Source: Monoglobus pectinilyticus | GTDB lineage: Bacteria > Bacillota > Clostridia > Monoglobales > Monoglobaceae | Reading direction: 5' to 3' | NCBI RefSeq assembly: GCF_002874775.1 | Contig: NZ_CP020991.1 | Location: forward strand, 1,950,014 to 2,014,013 | Length of the DNA stretch: 64,000 nt | Shown: positions 7,398-59,882 of the stretch, piece after piece | Layout: each line of letters starts with the position of its first letter | Numbering within the stretch: position 1 is the first letter of the stretch | The notes under the pieces: generated by a model | Database searches by the model: none | Seen by the model: only the letters and a program-made list of their open reading frames with translations | Told to the model about the DNA's origin: nothing | Position numbers and translations under genes: made by a program

Positions 7398-7994
7398 ATG
7401 AAACTTAATGATGCTAATACTGTTGCCGCAAGTAATGGTGTTCATAAAGATATAAATAAGAAAAATAATCCGGCATTTAAATGGGCGTTTATTATAATTG
7501 GCGCCGTTGTTGTGGTTATGTTAGCTATGTTTTTCATTAAAACTTTTGTTATATCAGTTGTTACGGTTTCAGGAACCAGTATGGAACCGGCAATTCGGGA
7601 AGGGGAAAGCTGGCTGATTAATAAAACAAATCAAAACTATCAGAAAAATGATATAATAACATTTTATTCTAATGAAGACAGAAAAAATGCTGTTGTCTCA
7701 AGAATTATCGCTGTTGAAGGAGATACGGTTTATATAGATTTTAATTCCGGAGATATTTATGTAAATAATGAAATGATTGACGAGCCATATGTTAGCGAAA
7801 AGACTAAAACCGGAGGAAAGTATATAACTTCCTTGATAGAAGACGGAAAATATGGCGCCGGAACTCCTATTGTTGTTGAAAAAGATCATGTCTTTGTGAT
7901 GGGGGATAATAGGAACAACAGCCGTGACAGCCGGGAATTCGGACCTATATCTACTTCCTCTGTTTTTGGAATTATTTTTAAAAAAATAAAATAA
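7398..7994 (+). CDS. lepB: Signal peptidase I family protein with substituted general-base lysine
   Basis: 198 residues from ATG 7398; GGAG lies 9 bases upstream, while the in-frame TTG at 7383 overlaps that site. One N-terminal transmembrane helix (about 29-55) places the catalytic domain outside the membrane. Box B, VSGTSMEPAI, carries the nucleophile Ser61; box E, GDNRNNSRDSREFGPI, is intact. In box D, where type I signal peptidases read (V/I)KR(V/I)IG.PGD with a catalytic Lys, this protein reads VVSRIIAVEGD, so Ser101 occupies the Lys position. It could use another base, have altered specificity, or be inactive. It is monocistronic, just upstream of the exopolysaccharide locus, and ends in a nested terminator hairpin. 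Confidence 0.85.
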   Translation: MKLNDANTVAASNGVHKDINKKNNPAFKWAFIIIGAVVVVMLAMFFIKTFVISVVTVSGTSMEPAIREGESWLINKTNQNYQKNDIITFYSNEDRKNAVVSRIIAVEGDTVYIDFNSGDIYVNNEMIDEPYVSEKTKTGGKYITSLIEDGKYGAGTPIVVEKDHVFVMGDNRNNSRDSREFGPISTSSVFGIIFKKIK

Positions 7995-8075
7995 AAAGAG
8001 CCATATTTGAACCAACCTCCTAATCGTTAGATTTTTGGTCTAACTTTTGGGGGGCATATCAATTTGGCTCTTTTT
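7993..8075 (+). repeat. Terminator stem enclosing an IS150-end-like palindrome (copy A)
   Basis: An outer stem AAAAAGAGCCA (7993-8003) pairs with TGGCTCTTTTT (8065-8075), giving a terminator. Its loop holds TGA...GTTAGA, a 7-nt turn, then TCTAACTTTTGGGGGGC and ATATCA (core 8008-8061). The 3' half matches the right-end inverted repeat style of IS150-group elements (TCTAACTTTTGGGGTGC), and the 5' half is a degenerate complement. Three related copies lie at 27287, 38203 and 59838. Confidence 0.75.
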
Positions 8076-8237
8076 GTTATCTAAAATTACAGCAATATGA
8101 TGTCAAAAAAATGTTTACTGCATATAATATTAAGCGGTATTATAAGTTTAGTGTTTCATATTAATGGATAAATTGGTAAAAATTGTTTGATTTTTTTAAT
8201 TAAATAAAATTATTTTATTAATATATTACGAAAAATC

Positions 8238-27275: not shown

Positions 27276-27334
27276 AAATTAGATATAATATGCACCATAA
27301 AAAGTGTTTAACTTTTAGTGGTGCATATTTTTAT
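27272..27334 (+). repeat. IS150-end-like palindrome acting as terminator (copy B)
   Basis: The core arms AATATGCACCA-TA-AAAAGT (27287-27305) and ACTTTT-AG-TGGTGCATATT (27311-27329) flank a GTTTA loop, and a T run follows. Flanking ATAAAAAT/ATTTTTAT can extend the pairing. Same family as the copies at 8008, 38203 and 59838. Confidence 0.75.
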
Positions 27335-38190: not shown

Positions 38191-38263
38191 TCCCCCGGGA
38201 ACTGATATACCTCTCTATAAGTGTCTAACTTTTGGCGGATAATATCAAATTTTTCCCGGGGGA
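38191..38263 (+). repeat. Terminator stem enclosing an IS150-end-like palindrome (copy C)
   Basis: The outer stem TCCCCCGGGAA (38191-38201) pairs with TTCCCGGGGGA (38253-38263), followed by a T run. The loop holds TGATATACC...AAGTGTCTAACTTTTGGCGG-ATAATATCA (core 38203-38247), again matching IS150-group end style on the 3' side with a degenerate 5' side. Confidence 0.75.
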
Positions 38264-59835: not shown

Positions 59836-59882
59836 TATGATATGCACCCCAAAAGTCAGATACTTTTGGGGTGCATATCATA
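59836..59882. repeat. Perfect IS150-end-like palindrome (copy D)
   Basis: The arms TGATATGCACCCCAAAAGT (59838-59856) and its exact complement (59862-59880) plus two flanking pairs give a 21-bp perfect stem around a CAGAT loop. There is no T run, so it is not an ordinary terminator. It is the most intact of four related copies and looks like two IS150-group terminal repeats joined with the interior deleted. Confidence 0.85.

Follow-up and report, generated by a model that had tools for sequence, protein, structure and literature searches.

The DNA analysed here, 64,000 nucleotides of the Monoglobus pectinilyticus genome (hereafter the window), carries four short palindromes, at 8008-8061, 27287-27329, 38203-38247 and 59838-59880. 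An earlier note on this DNA took them for fused ends of an IS150-type insertion sequence (IS). Are they elements that moved here, remnants of a longer element, or terminators of the genes that they follow?

Palindromes in the window

All four were confirmed by reading the sequences and by their repeat arms, and all lie behind genes, with plus-strand open reading frames ending at 7994, 27275, 38185 and 59786. The 59838-59880 palindrome (plus strand) is a perfect solo hairpin of 43 bp with the loop CAGAT, recognised by its repeat arms and by a covariance model; its 21-nt arms, at 59836-59882, are 100% complementary. Sequence and the ortholog in a second strain mark 27287-27329 (plus strand; 19-nt arms, 89% complementary) as a decayed IS left end. 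A degenerate solo with TTAGACACTTATAGAGAGGTATATCA in its second half occupies 38203-38247 (minus strand). The copy at 8008-8061 (minus strand) is a 54-bp solo of a long-stem type, with TTAGA / TCTAA in the stem and AGGAGG kept in the second arm. The pattern that the earlier note gave for all four is recognisable, but it is looser than written there: the 8008 arms read TGATATGCCCCCC versus TGAACCAACCTCC, and the 38203 copy is degenerate.

Covariance model R1, run on the window with filters off, found 59836-59882 (E 1.5e-17), 27284-27332 (E 5.5e-13) and 38201-38249 (E 9.2e-5); its training alignment included the 59838 and 27287 copies and excluded the 38203 copy. It missed 8008-8061 up to E 5. 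This copy was accepted because of a 23-nt IS-end match at 8039-8061 with one mismatch (shuffles: mean 0.00), and because its removal restores a terminator (see below). The bare 11-mer CTAACTTTTGG, with up to two mismatches, occurred at chance level (24 found, 26.3 expected), and Rfam had no match anywhere in the window. The four copies in 64 kb compare with about nine known places in 2.76 Mb; the window was chosen for them.

A complete IS3-family element with the same ends

The earlier note would have doubted its reading if no IS with these ends existed in related genomes. Such an element does exist: the palindrome ends are those of an IS3-family element that is complete in other genomes. Contigs L007 and L008 hold full copies, 1319 and 1321 bp long, that encode OrfA and OrfB. 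Their transposase matches NCBIfam transpos_IS3 (E about 1e-86), and OrfB has the domains HTH_21 and rve. From its end sequence the element would belong to the IS150 subgroup; NCBIfam gives the IS3 family only.

The left end in L007 reads TGATATGCACCCCAAAAGT-TAGAC-ACTTTTGGAGGTGCATATTTTTATG. Its terminal inverted repeat (IRL) is complementary to the orfA leader, whose Shine-Dalgarno sequence, GGAGG, lies buried in the resulting stem. The analysis shows that the first ~43 nt of the full IS are able to self-fold in this way, IRL with the Shine-Dalgarno-bearing leader, so that the left end alone is a hairpin. The right end (IRR), TTGTC(C/T)AAACTTTGGGGTTCACTTCA (TGAAGTGAACCCC..), is unlike the left one; most solos therefore combine IRL with a mirrored leader arm and not with IRR. 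In the usual solo, IRL is followed by the loop and the leader arm, whose last bases are mirrored to ATATCA; in three genomes (G027, G041, G104) the first 42-43 nt of the solo and of the resident IS are identical. The description as fused IS ends thus mostly fails: the second arm is either the leader arm of orfA in the IS itself or a perfect, mirrored IRL. Solos with IRL at one tip and IRR at the other were found at L077 and L142 (2 of 40 genomes searched) and at L103. Fusion of IRL and IRR as a general origin was dropped in view of the right-end sequences. Counts by size class were left aside, since many of the genomes behind them had been picked because they contain a palindrome, and the rule for solos took at least one IS left end (L104) for a solo and overlooked L103.

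A cognate transposase was searched for in the window genome, and only four matches were found (23-31% identity), three of them with internal stops; the best has 26% identity and an internal stop. With no close transposase left, the copies in this genome look like fossils.

Distribution of the palindromes

In the window genome, a single 2.76 Mb contig, the model finds at least eight places with E no higher than 1, of which two are weak (E 0.02 and 0.08); the 8008 copy, found by pattern, adds one more. This count is a lower bound, as 150 of 1236 candidates were scored in the first search, and it stays below the hundreds of copies per genome of REP/BIME sequences. The absence of further copies, which would have spoken against the earlier note, was thus not observed in the genome or its relatives. 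A search of GTDB genomes for the perfect form of 43-45 bp, defined as two exact 19-nt arms with a loop of 0-12 nt, gave 49 stretches whose flanks are unrelated. Most of the loops resemble TAGAC or TAGACAA, or the complement of these. Another pattern, which placed GGAGG in one arm and allowed up to three mismatches, matched in 24 of the 393 genomes of the class that were searched. By our sorting of the rows, 11 genomes had solos (tip CATATCA), 16 had IS-like left ends (CATATTT/CATATTA) and 3 had both. There are two classes of solos: one keeps GGAGG, and the perfect class has GGGG instead.

In 11 other genomes of the genus, a DNA-level search did not recognise the flanks of the 59838 copy; the matches there were the palindrome or IS end itself, plus two short coding matches. 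Orthologous copies were seen within the same species only, and conservation at orthologous positions in distant species, which the earlier note would have counted against its reading, did not appear in these searches.

Probable insertion into terminator loops

Two of the copies, 8008 and 38203, lie inside a stem followed by T, as the earlier note had described. The 8008-8061 element splits a terminator at 7990-8078, whose outer arms (7990-8007 and 8061-8078) are 89% complementary by repeat finder, and it is flanked by the target duplication ATT (8005-8007 and 8062-8064). Removal of 8008-8061 and one ATT restores a perfect terminator, AAAAAGAGCCATATTTGGCTCTTTTT. By sequence and folding, the stem around the 38203-38247 element (CCCCCGGGAA / TTCCCGGGGG) spans 38191-38263; the flanking triplets, AAC and AAT, are not an exact duplication. 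The T runs at both copies belong to the older outer stem, and both terminators, though lengthened, still fold well. The 27287 and 59838 copies sit in no terminator. The 59838 copy has neither a target duplication (TTA / TAT) nor a surrounding terminator. As no T run adjoins it, this copy lends no support to the suggestion that IS ends were co-opted as terminators.

Six two-ended IS copies were compared, five of 1293-1321 bp and one of 692 bp. Five had an exact 3-bp duplication (TCC, GGT, TTT, AGC, TTG) and one, L138, had none. GGAGG solos had a 3-4 bp duplication in 8 of 18 cases, against about 7% by chance (P 2e-5). For perfect solos, the frequency was not above chance (6 of 48, P 0.14): 3-bp direct repeats showed no excess (5 of 49, 3.2 expected) and 4-bp repeats a slight one (2 of 49, 0.3 expected). 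Inverted flank triplets, as from a fold-back event, were found in 7 of 49 perfect solos (4.3 expected, P 0.1) and inverted 4-mers in 4 (1.5 expected, P 0.05); neither was convincing.

When the element and one repeat were removed at 16 sites, 14 of them selected for having a duplication, the restored sites folded at -15.8 kcal/mol on average, whereas mismatched halves gave -6.3 (sd 3.1). Ten of the 16 were below -12 kcal/mol and the remainder were weak. At 38203 the right flank was cut one base inside the element, which left the stem unaffected. The flank halves of perfect solos paired beyond the 5% null in 12 of 48 by duplex folding (2.4 expected; one copy too near the locus end was dropped), in 9 of 48 by local alignment and, beyond the null 95%, in 9 of 49 by an ungapped stem test. 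An A run on the left and a T run on the right flanked 31 of 48. At locus L053, the genes on both sides are also neighbours in a related genome, with a plain terminator between them there.

Taken over these genomes, the comparison shows full IS copies between 3-bp direct repeats in terminator loops. Solo hairpins of 43-54 bp are found in this niche as well, and in the GGAGG class the duplications are of the kind seen with the full IS.

Presence and absence between strains

A contig of M. pectinilyticus strain TSDC17.2-1.2, filed as a plasmid in PLSDB, has 98.2, 99.3 and 99.9% identity to the window genome over three stretches. Each of the four window copies has a counterpart at the same place in this strain. 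The 38203 copy is identical, the 59838 ortholog has changes at 3 of its 43 positions, and the 27287 ortholog still reads GGAGGTGCATATTTTTATG, with GGAGG and TTTTTATG. All three differences in the 59838 hairpin keep a G-U or Watson-Crick pair.

The strain also has a 44-bp GGAGG solo inside a terminator (NZ_OY725727.1:44230-44273), and the same terminator is empty in the window strain. The empty site reads GAGCC-GAATTTTC-GGCTC and the occupied one GAGCC-TAAAAA[44]AATTC-GGCTC; their lengths differ by 47, that is 44 + 3, and a few loop bases also differ. A palindrome-free site, proposed as a check by the earlier note, thus exists within the species, and together with the terminator restored at 8008 it upholds the impression of insertion into a terminator. 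The difference between the strains fits a putative arrival of the hairpin as such, or of a full IS that then lost its interior.

Origin of the palindromes

In our view the palindromes are probably minimal, non-autonomous forms derived from an IS of the IS3 family whose targets are intrinsic terminators. Of the readings offered by the earlier note, non-autonomous minimal elements agrees best with the IS-derived ends, the terminator sites and the empty ortholog. For the full IS, the left end suggests a translation lock against read-in transcripts: where transcription reads in through the split terminator, the hairpin would hide the Shine-Dalgarno sequence, so that the IS would stay silent. The leader arm may in addition mimic an inverted IS end. 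IRL plus leader arm could then pass for a complete short element to the transposase, which would move it in trans into terminator loops, and the inserted hairpin would lengthen the terminator hairpin rather than break it.

Mobilisation in trans is favoured over an origin as scars formed in place, which is possible but distinctly less likely. In the latter case slippage or template switching at the left-end hairpin would delete the interior of a full IS that had inserted in a terminator, and the palindrome left behind would itself be immobile. Solos within one genome do differ and resemble the resident IS, and L142 is one base off what slippage would be predicted to yield if it ran from the leader arm into the right end. 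Other deletion sizes also occur, namely 692 bp (L117), about 105 bp (L106, L109) and about 61 bp (L195), and perfect solos are without duplications, as expected after a fold-back event. However, plain deletion should retain the right-end tip CACTTCA, and none of the 55 GGAGG-pattern rows has it at the 3' end, where two or three mismatches would have allowed it; solos of the IRL/IRR type were found in only 2 of the 40 genomes searched. Direct duplications, in turn, are not expected of a fold-back copy, but they flank 8 of 18 GGAGG solos. Minimal elements are thus preferred because plain deletion of the IS would not leave the mirrored tip and a fold-back copy would not leave the direct duplication.

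Several observations speak against minimal elements. Perfect solos, including 59838, lack an excess of 3-bp repeats, and in most of them the flank halves are unpaired. Solos differ among themselves within each of four genomes (G013, G023, G025, G026), unlike the amplification of one unit. IS3 circles of about 45 bp are hard to picture as duplex DNA, this size being below what an IS3 circle should allow. The second tip, ATATCA, is without an account, and a few loop bases also differ at the polymorphic strain site.

More tentatively, and rather doubtfully, the 43-54 bp hairpin itself might be the transposable unit, among the smallest. It would be moved by a DDE (IS3-type) transposase as an extruded or single-stranded hairpin whose base resembles a complete IS end, and could spread through terminator loops because terminators are lengthened, not broken. 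IS3 circles of about 45 bp are hard to picture as duplex DNA, this size being below what an IS3 circle should allow.

That the palindromes are native terminators, or another structured element merely resembling IS ends, is very improbable and was already disfavoured. They are strong hairpins behind genes, two of them followed by T runs, but near-identical sequence at unrelated loci, target duplications, the empty ortholog, the lack of an Rfam match in the window and of a T run at 59838 all argue otherwise. Least credible of all is an origin as chimeras, made in assembly or library preparation, in which two IS left ends were linked head to head via hairpins: about three quarters of perfect solos have unpaired flank halves and several lie near contig ends, yet the window genome is one contig, the other strain's assembly has the same copies, and of the 30 genomes that have a perfect solo, 11 lack any other IS end when up to two mismatches are allowed. 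A rearrangement or chimera is also weakened by the gene neighbourhood at L053, the one locus examined.

Relation to known systems

The source element is like the IS3 family in its OrfA/OrfB, HTH_21 and rve domains, TG...CA ends and 3-bp target duplication. It is set apart by a left end that is self-complementary with the leader, and the solos, unlike the family, have no coding interior. With MITEs the solos share terminal inverted repeats that match a related full IS (IRL on both sides, or IRL and IRR) and the lack of an open reading frame; target duplications, another trait of MITEs, are present in a subset of the solos only. They differ in their size of 43-54 bp, with almost no interior, in having few copies per genome, and in a second end that mirrors the first rather than the right end. 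The accessible part of a MITE review mentions neither IS3 nor such palindromes (PMC10969869).

IS1397, ISKpn1 and ISPsy8 are described, in the part of the source available, as IS3-family elements choosing extragenic palindromes, REP/PU (PMC1525189). The targets of our source IS are instead terminator loops of varied sequence, not one repeat family. In ISPpu9, according to the excerpt available, the transposase leader folds over the ribosome-binding site, and weakening the fold raises expression 26-fold (PMC8450116). The leader structure over the ribosome-binding site is shared; in our source IS, known from sequence alone, one arm is the terminal inverted repeat.

Nearly precise excision of Tn10 leaves a short palindrome in which both arms are element ends. 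The solos differ from such remnants, as their usual second tip is not right-end sequence.

In open-licence PMC text, searched by titles and abstract beginnings, no paper describing these palindromes or IS3 elements in terminator loops was found; the IS1447 paper, in the part available, concerns slippage (PMC6211511).

Minimal elements of this kind would join three features: an IS choosing terminator loops, a terminal repeat locking the translation of its own transposase, and near-interior-less derivatives that sit in terminators without breaking them. They would account for a set of intergenic palindromes in gut Clostridia, in which the 43-54 base forms recur, and give a testable lower size limit for the cargo of a DDE transposase. 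They also raise the question of whether an element of 43-54 bases can still move.

Related sequences in other genomes

Six stretches of viral contigs had the 19-mer; three are IS left ends (L007, L008, L010), three appear chance-like, and no solo was among them. Four unannotated phage records (H17-H20: MT835670, MT835836, MT835879, MT835475) have 93-95% identity to the 43-mer, three of these matches within about 125 bases of the record end. On Lactococcus lactis plasmid pUC06A (NZ_CP130278.1), L223:2001-2047 is an IS-like left end with a similar Shine-Dalgarno hairpin ahead of an ATG; its identity to window 8015-8062 is 89.8%.

In two species of the window's genus, a left end with leader and ATG lies in the same terminator (L106:1501 and L109:1435, in G037 and G040), whose other half follows after about 105 bp; the two species share this derivative, formed by internal deletion. 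In L195 (G375:C204), a GGAGG solo is directly followed by TTTTGGGATTCACTTCA, a right-end remnant, and the whole derivative measures about 61 bp. The right flank is the same in two solos that lie 2.6 kb from each other (L189 and L208; G410:C1:749854 and 752454), as if a segment with one edge in the palindrome had been duplicated. Finally, L128:1501-1560 (G000:C1:1224679-1224738) is a related long-stem palindrome with other ends, TGATGGTGACCCAC.. / ..GTGGGTCACATCA, pointing to a second IS subfamily.
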